Origin: a virus | Virus record (IMG/VR): IMGVR_UViG_3300030233_000283 | Span: 1 to 44,496 of that record | Length of the DNA: 44,496 bases | Reading direction: 5' to 3' (one strand) | Shown: positions 1 to 15,003 of the stretch, in pieces | Numbering within the stretch: the first letter of the stretch is position 1 | How the letters are laid out: each line of letters starts with the position of its first letter | Notes under the pieces: generated by a model | The model's input: the letters and a program-made list of their open reading frames with translations, nothing else | Databases searched by the model: none | Told to the model about the DNA's origin: nothing | Program-made: the position numbers and the translations under genes

Positions 1-3000
1 GGTTACTTCGCGGTTGACCACTTCGGCATTGTGGAACAGCCAGCTGATTTTCTTCATCACTTCGTGGCGCAGAGGAATGTACTCCACACCGCTGTCGCCG
101 ATGCCGGCAATCTCCATGGCCATGGTTCGATCGATCGCACCGGAGGCATACATTTCCTTCAGGGCTCTTTTCTCGTCAGCCGTGAGATTGCCGCGGCTGA
201 TGTCACCCTTGCCGCGCAGAATGTCGCCAGAAGCCTTCAGCAGCGCGGCGGAAGCCTTGGTCACGCCGCCGAGCCTTGCGCCGAGCACCGGGATACCGAA
301 CAGGATCGGTTGTGTCATGTTGATGATCGCCGCCGCAGGAGTTGCCGCCAGATACCAGACAAAGGCCGCGCTGTTGATCTTCTGGGCCAGCTTGCTTCCC
401 TTGGGGTTCATCACCCAGTCGTGACGCTTGGTCAGCTCGTTGACCAGCTGCCCAGCGCGCGTCGGGTCATCTGTCTGGCGCGCTTGATCACGAGCCTCAC
501 CGACCGCTTCCTGCAGGTCGATCCCGTATTTCAGTTTGCCCATCTGGTGACCGGCATGGAACATGTGGCTTGCAAATGAGCGAAGCGCGTCCTGATGGAA
601 GCCGGATGTTCCCTTGCGGTGGATGTAGCGTTTGCGCACAGACAGGTCCGGCATGGACTGGAGCCATTTCTGATAGATCGCGTCCATGACTTCCTGGTCG
701 ACATTTGCGTCTTTCAGGATGCCGTCGATTTCGGCGACCATGCGTGGGTCCATCGCCTGACGCACATCCCCGGATTCGCCAAGAACACCCTGTTCGAAGA
801 CGACGCCCGGGTATTCCTGCTCGATCTTCCGTTTGTTCTCGCGCATCCAGCGCCTGCGGTCCGCATCACGCTCAAACCGCGTGAACGAAATGACATCCCC
901 GGCCATGTCCCGAACAGTGACGAAATACTCGCCAAAACGGGCCAGCGGGAAATAGGGGGCGGGCACCCGGTTCTTCTCAAAGGTCTGTCGCAAACGGGAC
1001 ATGCGTGCCTTGGCGGCGAAGCGGGAGCGGGTCAGGTCCGCCTTGTGTCTGGCAGCAAGGTCTTCCAGTTTTTCGCGCCGCTCCGGTTCAGACAGTTTCG
1101 GATCGCGGTCAACCTTGGCCTTTGAAGCCTCGTAACGCTTCTTGGCCTCCTTCTCGTTGATCTCCTGGGCCTTCTGCACGTTGTCCAGGATCAGCTTGTC
1201 CATTTCGGCCTGGATCTTCACATAGGCATTGCGCACCTGCTTGTAGAGCGCTCGTGCCGCAGGTGGCAGGGCGTCGAAGCGGGCCTTCAGGCTGTCGTAG
1301 CCCTTGGGCGTTTGCAGGTCCCCATAATTCACGGCCGGATCGATGGAGGCGAGCGTTGCATCGTGCATCAGTTCTGCCAGTGCGCTCGCCGCTTTCCGGT
1401 TCCGGCTGGAGAACTTGCGCCAGGTCTGCGCAATGGCGTCCATGGTCTCGTGCTTCTCGCCCCGATAGGTATCCATGAGGCGCTTGACCTTAAGGTACCG
1501 GTCTATGGCGCCCATGCCCGGGCGTTTCATTTCCTGAAAGTAGTTGAGCGGCACCAGCGACAGCAGCGAAGGAGAAAGATCCGTCCAGCGTCCACTGATC
1601 TGCTCACGCACAGTGTTCGGTTCGAACCGACGCGACAGACGCGCCTTGCCTTGCCGCCCAGCGCTCGCCGTGCCGGTGCCGGTCTTGTCTTTCAGGGCAG
1701 CCACCGCCAGGGCCCGGAGCTGTGCAGGGGTCACGGTGCCGATCTGCCGACCAAAGCGCGTCAGCATCCAGGCCTTGACCGCGCCGATGACATTCTGCGC
1801 CCAGCGCTGCACGGTGCGAGGGGCGGCCTCGTAGGCTTCGATGGCGTAGGCGCCGAACTCTTCAACTGCAAGTTCCCCTGCAGCCCCAGTCCTCTCCACG
1901 CTCAGTCTCGCCGCGTCGAAGAATTTACGCGCTGCGCCGCCGGAGGTCTTGTATTGGAGGTAGAGGTTGCCAAGCCGCTTCTCCAGCTTGTCCCACACCT
2001 TGCGCCGGAAGAGCGCGGTCTGGCCTGCGTGAAAGGCTTCATGCAACAGAACGGCAGTTGCCTTGCCTTCCGGAATGGCGCCGTCGATCAGGGTGATTGT
2101 GCCGGCATCATCGGTGAAGGCCTGCGTATCGCTCGGCAAATCGGCCGGCACGCTGGTTGCAATGCGCAGATGACTCTTCTCAATGAGTTTGTTGGTTAGG
2201 TCTGCGAGCGGGCCGACTGCGAGTTCTGTGCGCAGGTCCGCTGATTTCTTGCCCTTTGGTCGCCATTCGATTAGATTGAAACTTCCGAGGGCGCCTTCCA
2301 ATGCCGACAGCCTCGACAGCTTTGCTGCAGGACCGTCAGGGCCTTGAACCCCTGAGCCCTCGGCCTCTCTATCTATGTGAAGGTCATAGTGCCAGTTGCC
2401 ATCATCCGACTTGTGGATGGTTACTGCGAGATGGCGGATTGTGCCTTCCAGTTCTACCGGAGCTGCGATCACCTGCCGCTCTATGACGCCTTGGCGGTTT
2501 CCGGCTTCGCTCAGGACCACATCGCCGTGTTCCAGAATGGCCTTGATCGACGGAACGCTGCGCAAAAGAACGTCACCCTTGCGGCCATAGGTCGATTTTT
2601 TGAGGCCCCGGGCCTTGAACCGGATATCGAGCCCGTCCTTGGTAGTGACAGTTCGCCCGATCAAGTTCTCCCGGTACCAGTCGACTGCGGCCTGCCGCAG
2701 TGCTGGCATATCTTCCGGCCCGTTGAACTCCAGGAGTTCGGTGCCGGAGAGACGGGTAACAGGTTCCTGGCGCCGCGACAGCTTCATATCTGTGGTTGAC
2801 GGCTTGGCGGCCTCCTCCTCGACTAGATCCTTCGCGCTGCCTGCCTTGTCCGCTTCGCTCTGTCCGGCTTCGCCCTTCTCGTTCTGAAGCTCCAGCTCCA
2901 GTTCCGACAATTCGCCCTGCTTCTCCAGATAAAGCGCTTCCTCGGGGAAGGGGGCGCCGATCTGCGCCTTCACCTGCTTAAGCCGCCGCTCGGCCTGCTC

Positions 3001-6000
3001 GATCTTGAAACCGAGTTCTCCAGGCTTGTCGAAGATCGAATTGACCTGGTTGACCGCCCTCTGGCCGATCCCACCAACCGTCACTTCCTCGGCGCTCGGG
3101 TGTTCTGCCAGATCTGCCATACCGCCGGGCAGGTCGATGGCAAGGGCGGCCTTGTGGGACCCATCTTCGAAAAGCTTGCCGTAGTAGTTGACGTCATGAC
3201 CGCCGAGTGTGCCCAGGGTTACGGTGCTTTCCTTCTGCGAGACGGCTTCGCCGCTGAACTTCTGGAACAGGGCCTTGGCCCATTCGTCGCGCTTGTCGAA
3301 AGTCTTCTTGCCCAGGGCCGCCGAGAAAGCACCCGCCTTGATCGGCTGGCCGCGTTCCGCCGCCGCCTCGAAATCGGCTTTCTCCTTGACCAGTCGGCCG
3401 ATTAGACCCTCTTCGGAGTGTTCCTCGCGCTTGTATCGGTTCTGCTCGTCAAAATGCGCTTTGCGCAGTCGTCCCAGCCGGTCCACTTCCTGACGCAGGC
3501 CAGCCAGTTGCAGATAGCGTGGATCGCCGGAGGAAAGCGCGGCAGCCATTTCGAAGGCGGACGCCTCGGAAACGTCTTCCATCTTGCGCACGCTGTCGTC
3601 ACCGTTCAGCGCCTGCTCGATGAAGCGGGCCTTTCGGGCATTCATCGACCACATGGTGCTGTCGTAGCTGCCCTTGGTCGCATAGGCGCGGATGGTGATG
3701 TCAGCGTTCTGGTTGCCCTGTCGGTCGGCGCGGCCTTCGCGTTGTTCAACCGATGCCGGGAACCACGGCGCGTCCAGATGATAGAGATGGGTCAGGCGCT
3801 TCTGCACGTTGACGCCGGTCTCCATGTCCTTGCCGCCGATCAGGATGCGCTTGCGACCTTCACGCAGATCCGCGAACAGCCGCTCTTTCTTTGCGTGCGC
3901 CTTGTGGTCCCGAATGAAGGCAAAGTGGTCCTTTGGAATCCCGGCGTCTAACAGGCGCTGCTCGATCCAGCCCTTCATGTCGAAACCGCGGGATTTCACC
4001 ACCGCATCGCCAAGACCGATATCGGAGAAGATCACCAGCGTTGACCCCTTGAGCGGGTCTTTCCCGCCGGTCAGCCCCACATACTCGTTGTCAGCCGTGG
4101 CGCGATAGTCGGCGATGACATCGTCCAGCAGCTGGTTCAGCTTCGAATTCGGATCTGAATCCTGCGTGGGATGCACAAAGCGCATGTCGATTGCCGAGAA
4201 CCGGCCATCGGCGATCACCTTCAGGATGATGTCTTCACCCTTTTTCGGCGGCCCCTTCCGGTCGCGGATTGCGTTCATCCGGCGGTTCAGCTGATCCTGA
4301 TAGGCCTTGTAGCCGTCAGGGGTCGGTGTGGTCTTGATTTCCCGGGGCGGATTGAGCCGGGTCGGCCGCTGCACCAAGGCCCCTAGCGAGGAAGACGTCA
4401 GGATGTCCATGAACGAGCGCACGCGGCGCATCAGCTCCGGAACGTTCTGGAAACGGGCGAACCGGCTGACGGTTTCGAATTTCCCGGCCGCGTTCTGCTC
4501 AAGCCCTTCGACAATGTCGCCGAACTGCGCTGCCCAGGCGTCGAAATTATGGGCTCCGATGTCCTCCAGCACATCCGGCTGGAACAGGCGCTGCACCGTG
4601 AACAGCTCACCCATCGTGTTGGTGACAGGGGTGCCGGACGCCCCGACAAGAACCCGCTTGGGGTCCTTGTTGGCTTCGCGCAGATAGGTGACCTTCGAAT
4701 GGAGGTCCATGGCCCGCTGCGAGCCTTGTGGATCAATCCCCTTGACCGCACCCTGGTTGGTGACGAAGTCGAGCTTACGGAACTCGTGAAGCTCATCGAT
4801 CAGAAGCCGGTCGACGCCAAGCTCCTCGAACGTCATCACCGCGTCTTTGGCTTCGCGCTTCTGCTTGCCCTGCAGGCGCTTTTCCAGCCGCTCGATCTGG
4901 CTCTGCGTCCGCTTGAACGACAGGCCCTTGCCCTCTACGGCTTCTATTTCGTCCTGAAGCTCCTTCCACTCGTCAATCAGATCCTGGATCTGCTTGTCGT
5001 TGGTCTCGTCGGACAGGCCGATCCGGCCAAAGGCCGAGTGGGTGATGATGATCGCGTCCGGATCGTTCAGCGCCGCCTGGGCGATGAACTTGCGCCGATT
5101 GGACGTGTGGAAGTTCTTTTCATCCGCCACCATGATGTTGGCGGCCGGATAGAGTTCCAGGAACTCACGCTGGAACTGGCCGAGCATGTGATTGGGAACG
5201 ACGAACAGCGGCTTCTTCGACAGCCCGAGACGGCGTTCCTCCATGCCGATGGCGATCATTTCGAAGGTCTTGCCCGCGCCCACTGCATGGGCCAGATAGG
5301 TGTCGCCGGTCTGGATCGCCCGCCAGATCGTACGTTTCTGGTGCGGATAGAGGTTGAACCGCAGCGAAGTGCCCGGAAGAGTCAGGTGCGACCCGTCAAA
5401 CTGGCGCGGTGCGATGTTGTTGTAGTTGTCGTTGTAGAAGTTCACCAGCCGCTTGGCCCGGTCGGCATCCTTCCAGATCCAGGACCGGAACCGATCCTTG
5501 ATCTTGCGAGCGATATCGTTGAGCTTCTCGGTCGCTTCCGGATCAGTCTCGGTGGACTTCTTGCCGTCCGCAGTCAGCGTCGGGCGCGTGATCCGCAGCT
5601 GGGAGTTGTTCAGGATCTTGTTGAGGATGTCGGCTGTCGAATGGTTGTCCATGGCGAACTCGCCGATGGTTGAGCCGTTTCCACTGACCTGCCAGGTGCC
5701 CACCTTCAGATTGTGGTTCACGGTGATGGTCTGACCGAGAACCTCCTCGCCAAAGGCTTCGATGTCGCTTGCCGGCAGCCAGGGCACGCCCAGCTTGACA
5801 TCGATTTCCGTGGTGCCGAGTGGGCGGGGCTGGACGGTCAGCAGCGCATCCACGTTGCGCGTGTATTTCGGATCCAGTTCCGCGGCCGCTCGCGCTTCGG
5901 CCAGCTTCTGCACAACGTTGCCGGACAGGTATTCGTCGGCCAGCTGCCAGCCGTCACCCGGGTCCTCGTAGATCGAGGTGCCGAGATCGGCAACCGTGTC

Positions 6001-9000
6001 TTCTTCGCTGCGCCCAGCGCGCTCGGCGATATCGGCAAGGTCGAAGCGGCCGAGCTTGTCCAGGGACACGAACAGCGCGTCCTGCGTCGTGACGATTTCC
6101 GGTTCGCTCGGATTGTTGAGAACACGGCCCTTGAACAGCGCGCCTTCAACGATGTCGCCGCTCTCGGTGATCTTCTCCAGCGTGAAGGCCAGGGGGCCGT
6201 CCGGATCGATCATGAAAAGCGGTTCATTCTTGAAACGTTTGTAGGACTGGGTGTTGCCGTCCTGGTCGGTGCGTTCGATGGTCGAATAGGCGAGAATGTG
6301 CCCGTTGCGCTCCACCATGCCGCGATAGGTTTCGCGGGCAACTTTCAGGGAGGCTTCCCAGTCGCCGTCCGTCAGCTGGTCATATTGGGTCTGCTTGACC
6401 GCATCCCGAAGCGCAACGAAGTCCTTCAGGAACTGCGCCTCGCGCTTGGAGAGCGGTTTCAGCTTGCCGGTCGTGGTCTGACGCTCGGTGAAGGCTTGGC
6501 CAACACCGTCCTGGCGGATCATCAGATCGCCGTTGTCAGACAGGTAGAGACCGCCTTCCTTCTTGGCCTTCGGATCGAAGTCCTTTTCGATCACCTTGGC
6601 CTGTTCCGCCTTGGAACCGCGCTCAGGTTTGTAGACGGCTTCCGGCAGGTTCTTGACCGCATCGGCGAAGGCGGCCTCGATGTCCTTGCCTTTGTCGGGG
6701 GTCACCGTGTAGTCGTTCTTCCGGTACATCGAGCCGGTCGCTGCATGAGCGCCCAGCACCATTTCCGGGTGATCGGCGATATATTCGTTCACCGTGAAGG
6801 TGTCTTCGCCGACCTTGATTTCCTTCGTGCCGGTCCAGTCGATCCCGTTCTCTTCAATGCCGGGTCCACGCTTTTGCAGGAACAGGACATCGGTCACCAC
6901 TTCCGTGCCGGCGTTCGCCTGGAAAGCAGTCTGCGGCAGGCGGATCGCACCGAGCAGGTTGGCGCGCTCGGCCAGATAACGACGTCCCGCGTCCCGCACC
7001 TTGTCCAGGGTGTATCGGGACGTGACAAACACCATGACACCGCCCGGTTTCACCCGGTCGATAGTCTTGGCAAAGAAATAGTCGTGCAGCGAGAACCCGT
7101 ATTTGCGGTATTCCGGATCATTGGTGATCTTGGTCTGCGCGAAAGGCGGGTTGCCGATGGCAAGGTCGAAATAGCTCTTCGGCAATTTCGTCTTGGTGTA
7201 GTCGCCGTGCGTGATCCGGCTGTCCGGATAAAGATGCTTGGCAATCGCTGTGGTGACGCCGTCGAATTCGATGCCGGTATACTGGCTGGCGCCCGCCATC
7301 GTGGACGGCATCACGCCCAGGAAGTGGCCGATGCCCATGCCCGGTTCCAGCACACGGCCGCCCGCAATGCCGATCCGCTTCAATCCGTCATAGATGGACC
7401 GGATAACCGCTTCCGACGTGTAGTGCGCATACTGGGTGGAGCGGGCGGCAGTCTTGTAGTCGTCTTCAGAAAGCGCGGCCTTCAGCCGCTCGCCCAGCGC
7501 CTTCCACTTGTCGTCCTTGTACTGGCCGTATCGGTTCGGGAAGACGCCATTGGCAATTTCGGAAGCGCCCCAACCGGTGAACTGCACCATGAGCGCGCGT
7601 TCGTCTGTCGTGGCCTCGCGGCCTTCGCTTTCCAGCTGCTTGACCAGCTCGACAATCTGGACGTTGCGTTCCGCTGTTTCCCGCCAGGAGCCCTTGCGGG
7701 TCAGCTCCCCGTCTTTTACCCGGTAGTCGCGGCTTGGCTTTCGCTCAAGGCGTCGATCTGCTCGATCACCTGCGCCATCGCGATTTCCTCGGCGCCCTGA
7801 AACCGGCTGTTCAGATCCTGCTGGGCTCTGAGCGGGTTTTCCTGAAACATCGGGCTCGCTTCGCTGCGCACTGCCTCGATTGCCTGGCTGCGCGCCGCGC
7901 TTACGCTCTCGCTCCACTGGCTGGTCAGGCTGTCCAAATAGGTCGGGAGTGTTCCCGCCGTCTTCATTTCCGCGAACGCCGTCGGCGCTCTTTGCAGAAG
8001 GGCTTCCTGGATCGCTTCTCTTGCCTGAAACGGTGTCGTCATTTTGGGTCTCCGCTGCCGGTGTGAAAGCAACACTGTCCAGACCGGCGCCTTTCCTTAA
8101 GATCGTGGCCAGTTCCGTTGCCGTCAAGGTTGTCTTGGCCCAGTTGTTCCCGCCTCTGGTGCCGTACTTGTTGTTCGGGGCGTTGATGCGCCACATGATG
8201 GCGACACCCTGTTTCGTGTGCGGCGTGAAACCGCCGCGCAGGGCCGTCTCGCCAATGGTGACATAGACACCTGGGGCGCCGTCCGGCCCACTCAGGACAA
8301 GGCTGACATCGCCTGAGACGGCAGGGCCAGCCGGATTGACCGAAACGCTGCGTTTGTCGGCGTTGCCCTTGTGATCCACGAATTTGGTAAAGCCGGACTT
8401 CGCCAGTTCCTTTTCGACCGCCTTAAGATAGGACTGGGCTTCCTTCAGGAACGCATCTTTGACGCCTCCCTTCACGCCGAAGTCAGTATCCGTTCCGAAG
8501 TGCTCAAGGCTCTGAGACCAGCCGTCGATATGCTCGACGCCCCAATCCTGGGTGAGCGTCTTGTCACCAGCACTCTTGCCCCGTTTCTTCGCGGGTTTGG
8601 GCGATTCCGAGACTGTGCCGACAACCTTTTCCATCGCCTTGGTGACGGCGGCCGGTTTCGCCATCATCGTATCGAAGGCGGCCTTGGCATCGGCAACGCT
8701 GTCCATGCCGTCGGTTTCGAGCCCGGGATAGTTGCGAGCGCCCTCATAGAACGACAGCAGGTAGGGCCGGACATTCGGGCCCAGATCCTGCACCATGGCC
8801 TTGGCATAGTCGGAGAACTTGCGCACACCGGCTTCGATATAGGCACCGGCAATCGTCATGCCGTCCACCAGCACTTCCGGATCGATGCCGGAATTGACCT
8901 GGTTGAGCTTGGCTCGCAACCGTTTGCGGGCAGCGGTCACCTTGTCTTCGGTGAAGAGCTTGTTGCCGGAGAACTGTGATTTGGCCGCGACAGGCTTCTT

Positions 9001-12000
9001 GCCGTCGGTTTTTCGAGGCGCTGTCTTTTTGGTATCAGACGCGAAAACGGCCTTCAGGACGCCTATGAGTTCCTTTTCGGAGATTTCAGTTTCTGCTGGC
9101 GGCCGCTGTGTGTAGTCATGGTGAATGGCGCGGCCACCGGAAAAGCCAACAGATTTTCCTGAATTGGCCGGAATGCCAGTCATATTTCTGGCGAAGTCCC
9201 TCCGGAACGCAGATAGCAAGGCAGCGTCATCTCCCTTTTCAATGGCTTTGACCATCCTGCGGCGTTGGTTCTCGTCCAGCACAGATGCGCCATGTTTGAA
9301 AACGGCCACCAGATTGTTGCCGTCGGGCAGTCCCGGGACATCCTTAAATTCAGGAACGTCCAGCTTCTTTGGGCTGCTTTCGTTGCGCGACGGCTTCGTG
9401 CGTGCTCTGATTTCCTTCAGAAGTGCCGACCGGGCCGCCTCGGCGTCGTCATACTCATACGTCTGCTGCATGAGGTCGTTGACGCTCTTCGGGTCCATAC
9501 CGGCCTTCAGCGCGGCCTTGATCGCGCCGGAAGCATCAGGATAGCGGCGCGGCAGCATATAGGCCGGGTCCGCGTCCGCGTAATTGTTGCCCATGAAGAA
9601 CGAATAGGCGAACCCCTCAGGCGTTCCCGACCGGGAGTTCTTCGTCTTTAGGGACTTGCCGCCATACTTCTGGTGCATCTTGGATCCGGCGGTCGGCTCG
9701 GCATTGGCGACCGGCATCGACGCGGCGTTGAAGTCGCCCCAGATCAGCGTCTTCTTGGTGTAGTCCTCGCCGAAATGGTTCGGATCGAAGCCCAGTCGCC
9801 AGGGCGGCAGACCGGTCAGCCTGCCGATCCGGCCCACAGGGTTTTCCAGCGCCCAGAAGCCCCACGGCCGGAAATACTCGATGGTGCGCATGGTCTGGAA
9901 GACCAGTTCCTTGGACGCCTCGGTGCGCCCGTCCGCATCCTTCGCGGCAAAATGACGGGCACCGCTGACGGCGAAATCCGTGCAGGGGCAGGCGGCGAGG
10001 ATGCCGTAGACGTCGCTGAAATCCCAGTTCTCGTTGAAATACCCAACACTGAAATCCATGATGTCTTGGCCGTTCTGAAGATCGAACCGGATCACGTTGT
10101 AACCAGCGTCTTCCCACGGCTGAGACCACTGGCCGGTGTAGTCGAACAGGCTCAGGATGGTCTTGTTGAAATTCTCCGCGCGATGGGTTTCCTGCTGCTG
10201 AAGCGCGTGCTCCTTCCACACCTCTACGAGGGCCTTCGCCTGCGCGGGTTTCAGGTAGGGGGCGCCTTTCAGCTCCTTGGTAAGGGAACGCTGTTTCTCC
10301 GGCCCCTTGAAGAGGGACGCCCAATGGTCGGTGACTTCCCGGAACTGGGCAAGCGTCAACTCGGGCAACAGGGCCGCCTCGGCGGCCACCTTCTCATCGA
10401 GCGAGGCGTCCTCGCGTGTCACCGGCTGGTCGTCGGCCGTGAACGGATAGGTGCGGTCCGGATCGAGCGGCTTGCCCTTGTTGTGGATGTGCTCCGGCGC
10501 GGTGCGCTTCGGTTCCTGACCCTCGGAAGGTCCGGACCTTTCGCCTGAAACCTCCGGACCTTTCGCTTTCGCGAACGGTTTCGCCGTATTGCCCTCTTCG
10601 AACCATGCCTTCAGGTCGCCAACCGTGGTTTCGGTTATCTCGCCGATCCCCTTCCAGCCCTTGGTGTAATTGGCGTTGTAGGCACGGGTGGCCTGGGCCT
10701 TGTTCTTGAACCCCAGCATCACCTTGTGTTCGTCAAAGGATCGCGTACCCGGATTGATCTGGTCGATGACGAACACCGGATCGCTGTCACCCAGCTGCTC
10801 GGTCCCGGGCCGCAGGAACAGGTCGATGTGATCCTTGTCGCGGCCAACGGTGCCTTTGAAGTAGCCGTAATGGCTTTTCATGGTGATCGACCATCGCTTG
10901 CCGCTCGGATCGACACCCTTGCGTTCTGAGCCCTTTGGGTTCTCGATGGCTATGTCGAAGCCGCCCAGCGCCACATGGCCTTTCCTGTAGTTTCCGGCTT
11001 CCTTCTGGGCCTGCGTCGGTTCCGGCAGATCGTTCTGCGGTGAGGTGGCCGCTTCCTGTGCGGCCTCTTCCACTGAGACCGCAGCCGGTGCAACGCCGCT
11101 TGCGCCTTGGGCAAGTGCGATGGCCCTGGCGCGCGCATCGTCGTCCAGGTCGCCCCAGTTTGACCCGGCGCCGCCGATAGATTCGATGAAACCCTTGCCG
11201 GTTCCGGAGATATCCGGAAGTCCGTCCTTGTCCTTTGGCAGGGCGGCCTTGAAGGCGTCGAAAGTTGGCGGCGTTGCTGGTGCCGCCGGGACAGCGGGGG
11301 CCGGTACCGCGTTGTCCTCGGTGCTGACCTGCTGGGTGGCGGCCAGCTTCTTCTGGATGTTTGCAGGGAAGTCTGCCCAGCGCGTCGAAGGCGCTCGTTT
11401 GACCCTTGCCGCGGTCAAGATGGCCTTGCGCGCCTCGGTTGGCAGTGCGTCCCAGTCAATGGGAACCGGCGCTGCGTCGGTTACCGCCGGTTCAGGCCCT
11501 TCAAACGGGAGGTCGGCAGCGCCGTCGCGCCGATCCTCATCCTTCATCCGATTGAGAAGCGCATTGTTGACGCTATTGACATGGATGGGCGTGCGGGTCG
11601 TGGCCTTATTCGCAGCTGCTTCCACCCGGAACCGATAATCATCTGCGATCTGTCCCAGGCGCTGGGGTGACAAGCCGAACTCATCCGCAAGCCGGGACTG
11701 CTCGCCCGGGCTGACCTGGTCCATGTCCAGTGTGCTCCGGCCGAGCGTCTTCTTGGAGTCCCGACGCAGCTTGCCAAGGTCGAACAGCCGTGCGTGGCGC
11801 TCGTCCGGCAGTACCACCTGCGCACCGCGCACCTCGCGGGCCTTGGGGTCGCTGTTCGTGATCGTCTCCCGCTCGACAGGCGGGTTTTCCTTCAGGTCGA
11901 GTTCCTCGGTCTGGGCATCGGTCAGCCTGGAAACACGCAAGGCCTCACGCGGCACCTGCAACTCCCTGCCGTCATCCGCCTTGACCAGCACCTCGTCGCC

Positions 12001-15000
12001 GTCTTCCTCAAAGGTCTGGACCGTCGCCGGAAAGCGGTCGAGCCCTTCGGCGGCCACGATCACCCTTTGCCCGGGCTTCGGTGTCTTGAAGGGAACGGCG
12101 CCAAGGTCACCGGTCTCGGCTTCTGGCGGAAGTGGGCTGGTCGTGGTTTCTGCCGGGATCGGCTCGCTGCCCGGCAGATCGTCGGGCAGATCCTCCTGCA
12201 CCGGAGCGCCATTCGGAGCGCTGATCGGGACGTCGACAGCTGGTGCGGCTTCGACCGCATCGAGTGGCACCTGCAACAGTTCACCCGTGCCGACATCCAT
12301 GACAACGGCCTCGCCGTCCTCATAGCCTTCCACCCGGCCCATGACAGGCTCGGCGCCCTCGATCACGACATGCACGTCGCTGCCCACGGCAGGCGCACCG
12401 TCCGGCACGGCACCGGCCGGAACAGGGGCGGCGTCTGTGTCTGTTGGCGCGCTCAGCTGCTTGGGAACCAGAAGGCGTTCGCCAAGCACATGGGTCTGAC
12501 CGTCCGGCAACACCACGCGGCGCATGTTGTCCGGCACGCCGTCCTGATCCGGAGTTATCTGCACCTCGACACCGTTCAGCTCTCCGGCGGGCATGCCGGC
12601 AATGGCCGGGTCATGAATGAAAAACCCGTTCCCGGAGGTTTCCGCCACTCGGCGCTCGGCATAATCGACCGATTCCGCCAGCGCGCCGCGACGCGGTGTC
12701 CGGTCGGGCGTGATCGGTTCCCCGGCAGGTTCTGCCGGTGCTGCGCTGTCGTTTGCGGGACTCAATGCGCCACCCGCACCGCCCATACCGGCACCCATGG
12801 CACCGCCAACGGCCACGCCTCCGGCGGCGGCATTGGCAACGCCCTCGGTCAGGTCGCGGTGGGGATCGACCGTGTTCTTCAGCGCAATATTTTCGGCAAC
12901 CTGCGCTCCGGCTTCCTGCGGGGCCTCTTCCAGGATGCCCTCCGCCACCGCATCGCGGGTCGCGCCCTTGACGATCCTCTGCGCCAGCGTGCCGCCGACA
13001 CCGTCGGCCAGGATCTTTGCAAGAACATGGTCTCCGAACCCGCCAAATGCGCCCGTGGCAGCACCTGCGATCACGAACGCTTGCGTCGATGCATCGCTCT
13101 TAACCGCCTCTACAGCATCTTCAAATGAGAGGCCTTCCTTCATCAGCTGCTGAACGGCCTGGCTTTCCTCCAGCGCCTGTCGCGGCATCTGATCAATTTG
13201 CTCGCGCACGGAAACGGCAGCCTGACCGCCGCCGACGATGCCCTCAGTGATGGCCCCCGCCACAAGTGCCGTTCGCGCCGCCGCAGCCGCTGCGGTTTTC
13301 TGCGTGGCGCCGGAGGCGATAGCCGTCACATAGGCACCACGGGCAAGGCCAAGGCTCGGACCCATCGTGACAACGGTGCCGGGAATGGATTCCACGATGC
13401 CGGCGTAATAGCTGCGTGGATCTGCCCAGGCCGCACCCGGTCGGCCTTTTTCGCTGTCCCACCAGTGTTTCTCGCGGGCGTTGCGGGTAGCCGGTGTCAG
13501 GGTGGCGACGGCCTTGTCGATTTGACCGCCCAGCAAAGCCTCGCTCTTCTGGCCGTGCATCCACTCGTCAACGCTGTCCAGGGTCTCGACAATGCCCTCA
13601 CCGACGCCGGGGATCGCCCGTACCGCTTCCCTGACGCCAAGGCCGAGACCCGACCAACCGGCTTTCAGAAGGCGAGTGGTGTCACCGGCAAGCCCGCTGG
13701 ACTGGTTCTGCGCGTCCCAGTCCGCCTTCCAGGCCTCATACTGGTCTTCTGGAATAATCCGGTAGCGGCCCGGTGCTTCCGCGTCCAGTTTGCCGAAACG
13801 GGTCATCAGCTCTTCGTCTTCGGGCGTCTCGGACCCCGGCTGCAGATGCGCCCGAGCATTCGATTGCGGGCGCGACAACGATCCATCCGCCTGCACGACG
13901 GGAACGCCGCCCCACTCGGCCGATGTCAGCTGAACTGGCGCATCGCCGGATGCAGCGCCTTCGCCGCCAAAATAGGCCTGTGCCCGGGCAAGCCTGCTGT
14001 CGAGGTTCGGCTTACCCGGCCGCAGATAGGAATCGGAGAGCACACGGGTCGCATCATCGACTGTGTCAGTCGCCAGGAACTTGGCGAACTGTTTGGCTTC
14101 GTAAGGGTCGTTTGTGATTTCGTGCTTCAGGAACCCGTAGTTGGCCTCGTAGCTCGCCGGGTCCAGGTTGTTTTCCTTCACATACTGCTCGAAAGCCTTG
14201 CGGCGCGGACCCGTCCACATGCCGTATCCAGCGCCTCCTCTGGAGCCAGGAACCGTGGGGTCCAGTTCCTGGAGCATCTTGAACCCGCCGCTCTCGTGAT
14301 CGAGGTTGCCGACAAGCGCAGAGGCGTGCATGCGAGACAGGCCAAAGTCTGACATCAGGTCGCCCATGAGCCGCTGACCGATTGAGGCCCCGCCCGCAGC
14401 CCTCGCAGTCTGGGGAGCCGAATGGTCGTGACCGTCATAAGGGGAATGAAACGCGTTGCGCAGCCAATCGGGCGCATTGGCACCTTTGCCGCCAGCCCCC
14501 CAGACCGCTTCCTTGCCAAAGCCGATATGCATGGAGCCGGGTTGCATGTAGCCGTCGCCCGCACCGATGCCGGTCACTCCACGGCTGCGAGCCTTGCGCA
14601 CGATTTCCTGAAAGATCGGCCGGTCGGCCTCGTTGGCCCAATCGAGCTTTCTGCCGTCCTTGTAGAAAAACGCATCGGCCGCGCCGCCGTGATCATGACG
14701 CACCGAGCCGGTGCGCGGTCCACCGCTTCCCTTTGCGGCCTGACCGCCGGAGAAGACTTCCATGGTGATGCCCATCTCGGGCAGGAACGACATCGCATTT
14801 GCCAGATCGTCATTGATCGGCTGGCTGCGAATAGCACCCTGGTTGGCATAGCGAAGCCACTCTTGGGAGTTTTCCCGCCTGTTCGATGGCTTGAGCCGTT
14901 CACCCGGTGTCTGATGCTGCTGGGCAGTTGCCGGTTTGGTGAGGCTGTCCGTGGAAAGGACTTGAACCTTGGTCCAATCGATAGGCGATTTGCCGTTTGC

Positions 15001-15003
15001 CAT
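1..15003 (-). CDS. Giant multidomain polyvalent virion protein (partial, C-terminus off the left edge)
   Basis: One frame is open from ATG 15003 to position 1 (5001 codons); I read it in triplets without a stop through 15003-7740 and in most of the rest. Domains in order: M15-like peptidoglycan peptidase (about residues 45-190, RHDHGGAADA near 102, GSMHIGFG near 156); phage tail lysozyme-like (205-350, DHESGG); Gly/Ala-rich hydrophobic stretches (530-740); inorganic pyrophosphatase-like (1320-1460, HYGYFKGTVGRDKDHIDLF); C5-cytosine methylase-like (1615-1805, PCTDFA, ENPVGR); linker (2320-2430); N6-adenine methylase (2430-2700, NPPF near 2615); SNF2-type helicase (3215-3780, Walker A GAGKT near 3245, DELH near 3400); zincin peptidase HEAFH (near 4320); PLxRFG motif PLARFGEYF (near 4685). 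The build fits phage polyvalent proteins injected with DNA to breach the wall and protect or process the genome. SD GGAG precedes ATG 15003. Domain calls are by eye. Confidence 0.9.
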   Translation of the reverse strand, partial: MANGKSPIDWTKVQVLSTDSLTKPATAQQHQTPGERLKPSNRRENSQEWLRYANQGAIRSQPINDDLANAMSFLPEMGITMEVFSGGQAAKGSGGPRTGSVRHDHGGAADAFFYKDGRKLDWANEADRPIFQEIVRKARSRGVTGIGAGDGYMQPGSMHIGFGKEAVWGAGGKGANAPDWLRNAFHSPYDGHDHSAPQTARAAGGASIGQRLMGDLMSDFGLSRMHASALVGNLDHESGGFKMLQELDPTVPGSRGGAGYGMWTGPRRKAFEQYVKENNLDPASYEANYGFLKHEITNDPYEAKQFAKFLATDTVDDATRVLSDSYLRPGKPNLDSRLARAQAYFGGEGAASGDAPVQLTSAEWGGVPVVQADGSLSRPQSNARAHLQPGSETPEDEELMTRFGKLDAEAPGRYRIIPEDQYEAWKADWDAQNQSSGLAGDTTRLLKAGWSGLGLGVREAVRAIPGVGEGIVETLDSVDEWMHGQKSEALLGGQIDKAVATLTPATRNAREKHWWDSEKGRPGAAWADPRSYYAGIVESIPGTVVTMGPSLGLARGAYVTAIASGATQKTAAAAAARTALVAGAITEGIVGGGQAAVSVREQIDQMPRQALEESQAVQQLMKEGLSFEDAVEAVKSDASTQAFVIAGAATGAFGGFGDHVLAKILADGVGGTLAQRIVKGATRDAVAEGILEEAPQEAGAQVAENIALKNTVDPHRDLTEGVANAAAGGVAVGGAMGAGMGGAGGALSPANDSAAPAEPAGEPITPDRTPRRGALAESVDYAERRVAETSGNGFFIHDPAIAGMPAGELNGVEVQITPDQDGVPDNMRRVVLPDGQTHVLGERLLVPKQLSAPTDTDAAPVPAGAVPDGAPAVGSDVHVVIEGAEPVMGRVEGYEDGEAVVMDVGTGELLQVPLDAVEAAPAVDVPISAPNGAPVQEDLPDDLPGSEPIPAETTTSPLPPEAETGDLGAVPFKTPKPGQRVIVAAEGLDRFPATVQTFEEDGDEVLVKADDGRELQVPREALRVSRLTDAQTEELDLKENPPVERETITNSDPKAREVRGAQVVLPDERHARLFDLGKLRRDSKKTLGRSTLDMDQVSPGEQSRLADEFGLSPQRLGQIADDYRFRVEAAANKATTRTPIHVNSVNNALLNRMKDEDRRDGAADLPFEGPEPAVTDAAPVPIDWDALPTEARKAILTAARVKRAPSTRWADFPANIQKKLAATQQVSTEDNAVPAPAVPAAPATPPTFDAFKAALPKDKDGLPDISGTGKGFIESIGGAGSNWGDLDDDARARAIALAQGASGVAPAAVSVEEAAQEAATSPQNDLPEPTQAQKEAGNYRKGHVALGGFDIAIENPKGSERKGVDPSGKRWSITMKSHYGYFKGTVGRDKDHIDLFLRPGTEQLGDSDPVFVIDQINPGTRSFDEHKVMLGFKNKAQATRAYNANYTKGWKGIGEITETTVGDLKAWFEEGNTAKPFAKAKGPEVSGERSGPSEGQEPKRTAPEHIHNKGKPLDPDRTYPFTADDQPVTREDASLDEKVAAEAALLPELTLAQFREVTDHWASLFKGPEKQRSLTKELKGAPYLKPAQAKALVEVWKEHALQQQETHRAENFNKTILSLFDYTGQWSQPWEDAGYNVIRFDLQNGQDIMDFSVGYFNENWDFSDVYGILAACPCTDFAVSGARHFAAKDADGRTEASKELVFQTMRTIEYFRPWGFWALENPVGRIGRLTGLPPWRLGFDPNHFGEDYTKKTLIWGDFNAASMPVANAEPTAGSKMHQKYGGKSLKTKNSRSGTPEGFAYSFFMGNNYADADPAYMLPRRYPDASGAIKAALKAGMDPKSVNDLMQQTYEYDDAEAARSALLKEIRARTKPSRNESSPKKLDVPEFKDVPGLPDGNNLVAVFKHGASVLDENQRRRMVKAIEKGDDAALLSAFRRDFARNMTGIPANSGKSVGFSGGRAIHHDYTQRPPAETEISEKELIGVLKAVFASDTKKTAPRKTDGKKPVAAKSQFSGNKLFTEDKVTAARKRLRAKLNQVNSGIDPEVLVDGMTIAGAYIEAGVRKFSDYAKAMVQDLGPNVRPYLLSFYEGARNYPGLETDGMDSVADAKAAFDTMMAKPAAVTKAMEKVVGTVSESPKPAKKRGKSAGDKTLTQDWGVEHIDGWSQSLEHFGTDTDFGVKGGVKDAFLKEAQSYLKAVEKELAKSGFTKFVDHKGNADKRSVSVNPAGPAVSGDVSLVLSGPDGAPGVYVTIGETALRGGFTPHTKQGVAIMWRINAPNNKYGTRGGNNWAKTTLTATELATILRKGAGLDSVAFTPAAETQNDDTVSGKRSDPGSPSAKSADGVRGNEDGGNTPDLFGQPDQPVERERKRGAQPGNRGSAQRSEPDVSGKPAQSPAGSEQPVSGRRGNRDGAGDRADRRLERKPSRDYRVKDGELTRKGSWRETAERNVQIVELVKQLESEGREATTDERALMVQFTGWGASEIANGVFPNRYGQYKDDKWKALGERLKAALSEDDYKTAARSTQYAHYTSEAVIRSIYDGLKRIGIAGGRVLEPGMGIGHFLGVMPSTMAGASQYTGIEFDGVTTAIAKHLYPDSRITHGDYTKTKLPKSYFDLAIGNPPFAQTKITNDPEYRKYGFSLHDYFFAKTIDRVKPGGVMVFVTSRYTLDKVRDAGRRYLAERANLLGAIRLPQTAFQANAGTEVVTDVLFLQKRGPGIEENGIDWTGTKEIKVGEDTFTVNEYIADHPEMVLGAHAATGSMYRKNDYTVTPDKGKDIEAAFADAVKNLPEAVYKPERGSKAEQAKVIEKDFDPKAKKEGGLYLSDNGDLMIRQDGVGQAFTERQTTTGKLKPLSKREAQFLKDFVALRDAVKQTQYDQLTDGDWEASLKVARETYRGMVERNGHILAYSTIERTDQDGNTQSYKRFKNEPLFMIDPDGPLAFTLEKITESGDIVEGALFKGRVLNNPSEPEIVTTQDALFVSLDKLGRFDLADIAERAGRSEEDTVADLGTSIYEDPGDGWQLADEYLSGNVVQKLAEARAAAELDPKYTRNVDALLTVQPRPLGTTEIDVKLGVPWLPASDIEAFGEEVLGQTITVNHNLKVGTWQVSGNGSTIGEFAMDNHSTADILNKILNNSQLRITRPTLTADGKKSTETDPEATEKLNDIARKIKDRFRSWIWKDADRAKRLVNFYNDNYNNIAPRQFDGSHLTLPGTSLRFNLYPHQKRTIWRAIQTGDTYLAHAVGAGKTFEMIAIGMEERRLGLSKKPLFVVPNHMLGQFQREFLELYPAANIMVADEKNFHTSNRRKFIAQAALNDPDAIIITHSAFGRIGLSDETNDKQIQDLIDEWKELQDEIEAVEGKGLSFKRTQSQIERLEKRLQGKQKREAKDAVMTFEELGVDRLLIDELHEFRKLDFVTNQGAVKGIDPQGSQRAMDLHSKVTYLREANKDPKRVLVGASGTPVTNTMGELFTVQRLFQPDVLEDIGAHNFDAWAAQFGDIVEGLEQNAAGKFETVSRFARFQNVPELMRRVRSFMDILTSSSLGALVQRPTRLNPPREIKTTPTPDGYKAYQDQLNRRMNAIRDRKGPPKKGEDIILKVIADGRFSAIDMRFVHPTQDSDPNSKLNQLLDDVIADYRATADNEYVGLTGGKDPLKGSTLVIFSDIGLGDAVVKSRGFDMKGWIEQRLLDAGIPKDHFAFIRDHKAHAKKERLFADLREGRKRILIGGKDMETGVNVQKRLTHLYHLDAPWFPASVEQREGRADRQGNQNADITIRAYATKGSYDSTMWSMNARKARFIEQALNGDDSVRKMEDVSEASAFEMAAALSSGDPRYLQLAGLRQEVDRLGRLRKAHFDEQNRYKREEHSEEGLIGRLVKEKADFEAAAERGQPIKAGAFSAALGKKTFDKRDEWAKALFQKFSGEAVSQKESTVTLGTLGGHDVNYYGKLFEDGSHKAALAIDLPGGMADLAEHPSAEEVTVGGIGQRAVNQVNSIFDKPGELGFKIEQAERRLKQVKAQIGAPFPEEALYLEKQGELSELELELQNEKGEAGQSEADKAGSAKDLVEEEAAKPSTTDMKLSRRQEPVTRLSGTELLEFNGPEDMPALRQAAVDWYRENLIGRTVTTKDGLDIRFKARGLKKSTYGRKGDVLLRSVPSIKAILEHGDVVLSEAGNRQGVIERQVIAAPVELEGTIRHLAVTIHKSDDGNWHYDLHIDREAEGSGVQGPDGPAAKLSRLSALEGALGSFNLIEWRPKGKKSADLRTELAVGPLADLTNKLIEKSHLRIATSVPADLPSDTQAFTDDAGTITLIDGAIPEGKATAVLLHEAFHAGQTALFRRKVWDKLEKRLGNLYLQYKTSGGAARKFFDAARLSVERTGAAGELAVEEFGAYAIEAYEAAPRTVQRWAQNVIGAVKAWMLTRFGRQIGTVTPAQLRALAVAALKDKTGTGTASAGRQGKARLSRRFEPNTVREQISGRWTDLSPSLLSLVPLNYFQEMKRPGMGAIDRYLKVKRLMDTYRGEKHETMDAIAQTWRKFSSRNRKAASALAELMHDATLASIDPAVNYGDLQTPKGYDSLKARFDALPPAARALYKQVRNAYVKIQAEMDKLILDNVQKAQEINEKEAKKRYEASKAKVDRDPKLSEPERREKLEDLAARHKADLTRSRFAAKARMSRLRQTFEKNRVPAPYFPLARFGEYFVTVRDMAGDVISFTRFERDADRRRWMRENKRKIEQEYPGVVFEQGVLGESGDVRQAMDPRMVAEIDGILKDANVDQEVMDAIYQKWLQSMPDLSVRKRYIHRKGTSGFHQDALRSFASHMFHAGHQMGKLKYGIDLQEAVGEARDQARQTDDPTRAGQLVNELTKRHDWVMNPKGSKLAQKINSAAFVWYLAATPAAAIINMTQPILFGIPVLGARLGGVTKASAALLKASGDILRGKGDISRGNLTADEKRALKEMYASGAIDRTMAMEIAGIGDSGVEYIPLRHEVMKKISWLFHNAEVVNREVT
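7716..8042 (-). CDS. Small alpha-helical protein encoded out of frame inside the giant gene
   Basis: A 108-residue frame (MTTPFQARE... to ...ESQAATTG) starts at ATG 8042, preceded by GGAG with 7 nt spacing. It lies wholly inside the giant gene in another frame. Over 7741-7920 its third codon positions are about 80-90 percent G/C, while the giant frame shows only about 30-60 percent, so this frame carries the usual coding signal here. The giant frame reads as a Pro/Gly/Arg-rich linker at this point. The protein is helical, acidic to neutral, without signal peptide or membrane segment. It resembles small conserved proteins found between helicase/methylase genes of mobile elements, but I cannot name a family. 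Either it is a true overlapping gene, or three ancestral genes became joined in one frame by loss of stops. Confidence 0.65.
   Translation of the reverse strand: MTTPFQAREAIQEALLQRAPTAFAEMKTAGTLPTYLDSLTSQWSESVSAARSQAIEAVRSEASPMFQENPLRAQQDLNSRFQGAEEIAMAQVIEQIDALSESQAATTG

Follow-up and report, generated by a model that had tools for sequence, protein, structure and literature searches.

Positions 7716 to 8042 on the minus strand of the virus record IMGVR_UViG_3300030233_000283 very probably constitute a true same-strand overlapping gene that is internally initiated within a giant DarB-like gene, such that two proteins would be made from one stretch of DNA. This high confidence, which derives from sequence comparisons, covers the nested-gene reading and excludes function. 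The small open reading frame (ORF) is conserved at the same place and in the same frame in relatives, its start codon is conserved together with a ribosome binding site, and the pattern of substitutions indicates selection on the second frame.

A small open reading frame nested in a giant polyvalent gene

The stretch analyzed here (the window) is a virus record of 44,496 bases that encodes portal, major head, internal virion and tail-fibre proteins on the minus strand. The largest ORF (15003..1, minus strand) runs off the record at base 1 and encodes at least 5001 amino acids of a DarB-like polyvalent protein, each half of which matches phrog_10089 (DarB-like) with E=0. On the same strand, this ORF encompasses a phage tail lysozyme domain (PF18013; 13969..14358), an InPase domain (PF18823; 10600..11013), a first DNA methyltransferase-like domain (phrog_757; 9580..10191), an N6-adenine methylase segment (PF07669, Eco57I; 6955..7182), a SNF2-related helicase segment (PF00176, slightly below the cut-off; 4753..5298), Helicase_C (PF00271; 3715..3924) and the polyvalent-associated domains LPD3 (PF18798; 2386..2715) and LPD39 (PF18858; 1108..1611). 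The presence of the methylase-superfamily 2 helicase dyad, LPD domains and virion-type domains in one polypeptide identifies the giant gene product as a DarB-like polyvalent protein. DarB-like proteins are virion proteins, and the DarB protein of phage P1 is known for its antirestriction activity and packaging into the capsid. The giant protein has the lysozyme, InPase, methylase-helicase dyad and LPD domains in common with the polyvalent proteins, P1 DarB among them, surveyed by Iyer et al. 2017 (PMC5512222). The P1 darB gene differs from the giant gene in the window in being free-standing, with no match to the small family described below.

The small ORF is located between the N-terminal half of the giant protein (lysozyme, InPase and first methylase-like domain) and the half that consists of the DarB-like N6-methylase and SNF2 helicase, in the +1 frame relative to the giant gene. 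Translation and sequence inspection confirm, and put figures to, the features that a preliminary description had read from the letters of the window: a 108-residue ORF (stop codon included in the coordinates 7716..8042) outside the giant frame, with an ATG (8042-8040) that follows a GGAG Shine-Dalgarno (SD) sequence (8050..8053) after a 7-base spacer; a giant frame with zero stops across this ORF; a third-position G/C signal over 7741-7920 that belongs to the small frame (0.83 vs 0.43 in the giant frame, which is at 0.74 upstream and 0.80 downstream); a giant-frame reading of the overlap (7719..8043) that is a hydrophilic, low-complexity linker with 8% VILMFWYC; and the lack of a good start for a separate downstream gene near 7740, the giant frame offering only GTG 7917 and ATG 7590/GTG 7587 there, none with a good SD sequence.

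The length of the small ORF is compatible with a chance ORF in a GC-rich gene, the giant protein alone being real: in the window alone and with the giant amino acids fixed, the probability that the small frame is open is 0.33 under codon shuffling and 0.64 under the codon usage of the gene. The length by itself is thus no better than chance, and relatives were needed to decide.

Conservation of the nested frame in relatives

A tblastn search with the small protein detected homologues with 39-42% identity in the Burkholderia phages DC1, CSP3, JC1, BcepMigl and BcepIL02 (Lessievirus), each inside the annotated giant gene, in the +1 frame, with an ATG after GGAG or AGGAGG, and itself unannotated. 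A single-sequence search of viral contigs with the window protein and searches of plasmids with the small protein returned no match, so that an alignment and the methylase neighbor were needed to find homologues. Two sets of loci were assembled: the first, with the methylase segment after the overlap as the query, consists of 44 IMG/VR loci as well as named phages and plasmids, and the second, from an independent search with Erwinia/Klebsiella-type small proteins only, consists of 67 loci. A few phages belong to both sets, and certain records differ hardly at all from one another, so that there are fewer independent lineages than loci. The homologues span Lessievirus, Erwinia, Klebsiella, Pseudomonas, Vibrio, Agrobacterium, Microcystis and many uncultured phages. 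The closest relative of the window that we found is IMGVR_UViG_2889157821_000002 (L015), with a methylase segment that is 86% identical.

All small-gene HMM matches in the methylase-collected set are on the plus strand, in frame +1, within the inter-domain linker and over an open giant frame. The small-protein profile matches every phage-type fused giant gene except for three (L054, L070 and L072), and each of these has a +1 ORF nested at that position, with a family resemblance discernible by eye. Two truncated or gut contigs (L056 and L058) are also unmatched, and gut contig L057 carries a TnpV-type ORF in place of the profile match. The small gene is absent from the free-standing methylase-helicases of pAt-type plasmids. 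Among the loci found with the small protein, the giant frame (-1 relative to the small gene) contains no stops in 67 of 67, and the other frame contains 2-9.

In comparing related phages for the same overlap, we found neither of the two patterns that the preliminary description had named as contrary to its reading, namely a giant frame interrupted by a stop here or a small frame broken in close relatives: all informative relatives, including the 67 loci found with the Erwinia/Klebsiella-type small proteins, retain an unbroken small frame. Two loci depart from the common arrangement. At L083, the open part of the giant frame extends just a short way around the small gene. In Sinorhizobium phage PBC5 (L073/L074, locus 5100-6970), the giant gene is split into an upstream ORF that continues in frame into the small domain and a helicase half in another frame; this is either a real variant or a sequencing error in an old record. 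A separate annotation problem was noticed in Pseudomonas phage Itty13, where the genes annotated across the giant region run on the strand opposite to the DarB-like frame, probably a wrong-strand annotation.

Start signals and the probable route of translation

Matches to the SD sequence that are 4 bases long or longer precede 31 of 33 representative starts compared to 21% of background positions, an enrichment that is somewhat inflated in that the SD sequence was partly used in choosing the starts. A programmed frameshift from the giant frame into the small frame, yielding a giant protein that is cut short and ends in the small-protein sequence, could account for the fusion of the small domain to the upstream protein in PBC5 and for its C-terminal position in phrog_938. 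However, nearly all relatives have a conserved ATG or GTG with an SD sequence where the homologous N-terminus begins, and in many of these, the small frame is closed by a stop 2-5 codons upstream of the ATG, which leaves almost no window for a shift. Frameshifting is accordingly distinctly improbable, and internal initiation, the simple route given these upstream stops, is the probable mode of synthesis of the small protein.

Codon-position variation and selection in the two frames

Differences between eight pairs of relatives were counted by giant codon position (1/2/3). The pooled counts are 161/98/569 downstream of the overlap and 156/92/85 within it; for the window and its relative L015, the counts are 22/13/146 downstream and switch to 43/24/24 within the overlap (p=3e-17). 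Because giant position 1 is the third position of the small gene, it is the small frame that is conserved. Substitutions that are silent in the small frame and change the giant protein are in excess (146 observed vs 84 expected), and those that change the small protein and are silent in the giant frame are depleted (70 observed vs 91 expected). When the giant gene was scanned blind over 4,360 aligned codons, the overlap alone was flagged, along with one gapped window that runs into the overlap edge. The measurement of synonymous variation in both frames that the preliminary description had called for thus singles out the small frame, and this sequence evidence shows purifying selection on it in the overlap. 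The codon-position variation refutes a chance origin of the ORF, and the switch between codon positions, the conservation of the SD sequence and the 20-40% identity of the small-frame products among relatives, with the same frame in more than 100 loci, leave that reading a negligible probability.

The giant-frame amino acids in the overlap show no constraint beyond composition. This is what would be expected if the small gene alone were real and the giant gene were two genes, with the open linker frame between them accidental. Nevertheless, essentially every relative keeps the giant frame open, with a chance probability of such openness of 0-0.03 in many lineages (a low joint probability), and a downstream gene of its own would lack a good start. 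Furthermore, gp69 of phage JC1, the homologue of the giant protein whose gene contains the homologous linker, was detected in virions with 51 unique peptides (PMC9144972), at a coverage of 15.6% that leaves the intactness of the linker unproven. Two separate genes are therefore an improbable arrangement. As judged from its persistence without stops where chance would often close it, the giant frame is also maintained, free in its amino acids yet kept open. The open giant frame, the intact small frame and the codon-position variation together lend strong support to the earlier suggestion that the region may make two proteins.

The small protein is a probable distant relative of TnpV

The AlphaFold2 model of the small protein consists of four helices (pLDDT 88). 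Searches of PDB and BFVD with this model gave no significant match, and PHROGs contains no family for the small protein of the window. The best Pfam match for 33 of 41 members of one small-gene subfamily (best E-value 2.9e-7), and for 9 of 27 members of the window's own subfamily (best 3.8e-4), is TnpV (PF14198), a small protein of Firmicutes transposons and integrative and conjugative elements (ICEs). Profile-profile comparison of the small family with TnpV (hhalign) gives a probability of 30% (E 5.5e-4, 80 columns). The hhalign probability for the A3-A4 subfamilies is 93%. The last HMM iteration contained the gut locus L053, and the weak family links were re-tested using alignments without it. 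The small protein of the window itself scores 14.3 bits against TnpV, below the Pfam gathering score of 27 bits, and for this reason, we classify it as a probable distant relative of TnpV only.

The same nesting geometry is found in gut Firmicutes. In eight of eight records from the human gut (L147-L154), genuine TnpV genes are accompanied by a stop-free -1 frame, the other frame containing 10-16 stops; in seven of the eight, it is the giant frame, methylase-SNF2 or N-terminal polyvalent, that is stop-free, and L149 is ambiguous because the methylase frame begins later. For a Monoglobus record in which the giant frame is unbroken, the NCBI annotation shows TnpV and, with its start further along, a shorter SNF2 protein. 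L053 was considered as a free-standing TnpV and rejected as such: the giant frame is open through TnpV, with a third-position GC of 0.39 vs 0.80 for TnpV, as in L147-L152. Unlike the gene in the window, TnpV is also encoded as a free-standing gene (L143-L145) or beside an SNF2 gene, as in Streptococcus phage phi-SsuZKB4_rum (L067, 8118-8496), where TnpV is directly downstream of the SNF2 gene and is broken into two ORFs. In many Firmicutes conjugative elements, nesting may be the general rule for tnpV, with annotation either dropping TnpV or calling it at the expense of the giant gene.

Proposed origin and possible role of the nested gene

The distances between small proteins and between the adjacent methylases are strongly correlated (Mantel r=0.90, 0/2000 permutations). 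Among the published cases that we found, the ShiLan-type HNH insertions (PMC11855218) come closest to this geometry: a phage methylase gene carries an out-of-frame gene within a segment free of stops, and by this likeness the small gene could be a selfish inserted element. The small gene differs in that the predicted four-helix protein is not an endonuclease and has no HNH match, the gene has its own SD sequence and ATG, and it is very widespread: almost all fused giant genes carry it, always at one fixed site, and its presence is neither sporadic nor independent of the host gene. Given this near-universal presence and the co-inheritance with the flanking methylase, we reject a homing element, and an insertion of this type carries only a very slight probability.

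Under the nested-gene explanation, ribosomes would start within the giant messenger at 8042 and produce the 108-residue four-helix protein, and ribosomes in the giant frame would read the same bases as a flexible linker, so that each giant transcript would yield the small protein too. The overlap most likely originated through the fusion of two genes via a pre-existing TnpV-like gene: a free-standing gene of this kind between the two would have been read through in its -1 frame, and the overprinted novelty would then be the linker rather than the small protein. The earlier suggestion of a fusion of three ancestral genes fits such an origin, given the relationship of the small gene to free-standing TnpV and the free-standing helicase/methylase part in P1 and pAt plasmids, and it is retained as a proposed history.

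We tentatively propose that the small protein could act in the producing cell as a partner dedicated to the giant protein, for instance as a chaperone or helper in assembly or packaging, or as a restrainer of the methylase-helicase activity. This proposal is based on the linkage and co-inheritance of the two genes, the operon-like TnpV-SNF2 case and the analogy with the Dar accessory proteins of P1 (Ulx, Hdf, DdrA and DdrB), some of which, Ulx included, aid the packaging of DarB into the capsid (PMC9024508). The analogy is one of role: Ulx is encoded by a free-standing gene downstream of darB and has no match to the small-gene HMMs, and we rejected Ulx, or another ORF near darB, as a homologue of the small gene. 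According to the authors of the JC1 study (PMC9144972), homologues of the P1 helper proteins are missing in JC1-type phages.

The nested gene goes unmentioned in the searched passages of the polyvalent-protein survey (PMC5512222) and in the phage papers within our search, which extended to few subscription papers and did not include the original description of Bcep22/BcepIL02. Long, fully nested and deeply conserved same-strand genes are rare and hard to prove; the gene described here can be tested by comparison alone and recurs in more than 100 mobile-element sequences. It also exposes a blind spot of gene callers, which call TnpV and shorten the methylase in Monoglobus and do the reverse elsewhere. 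We further suggest, with equal reserve, that a gene of the TnpV superfamily may already have occupied the +1 frame of methylase-helicase polyvalent genes before the split between the lineages of proteobacterial phages and Firmicutes conjugative elements. If so, it would be among the oldest and most widespread overlaps in prokaryotic mobile elements and would encode an obligate partner of an antirestriction protein delivered by virions or conjugation, almost always suppressed by annotation pipelines. The small protein is a candidate to fill the helper role for DarB-like proteins that is vacant in phages without the known helpers of P1, and the nesting links the TnpV family, to which no function is assigned, to antirestriction polyvalent proteins.
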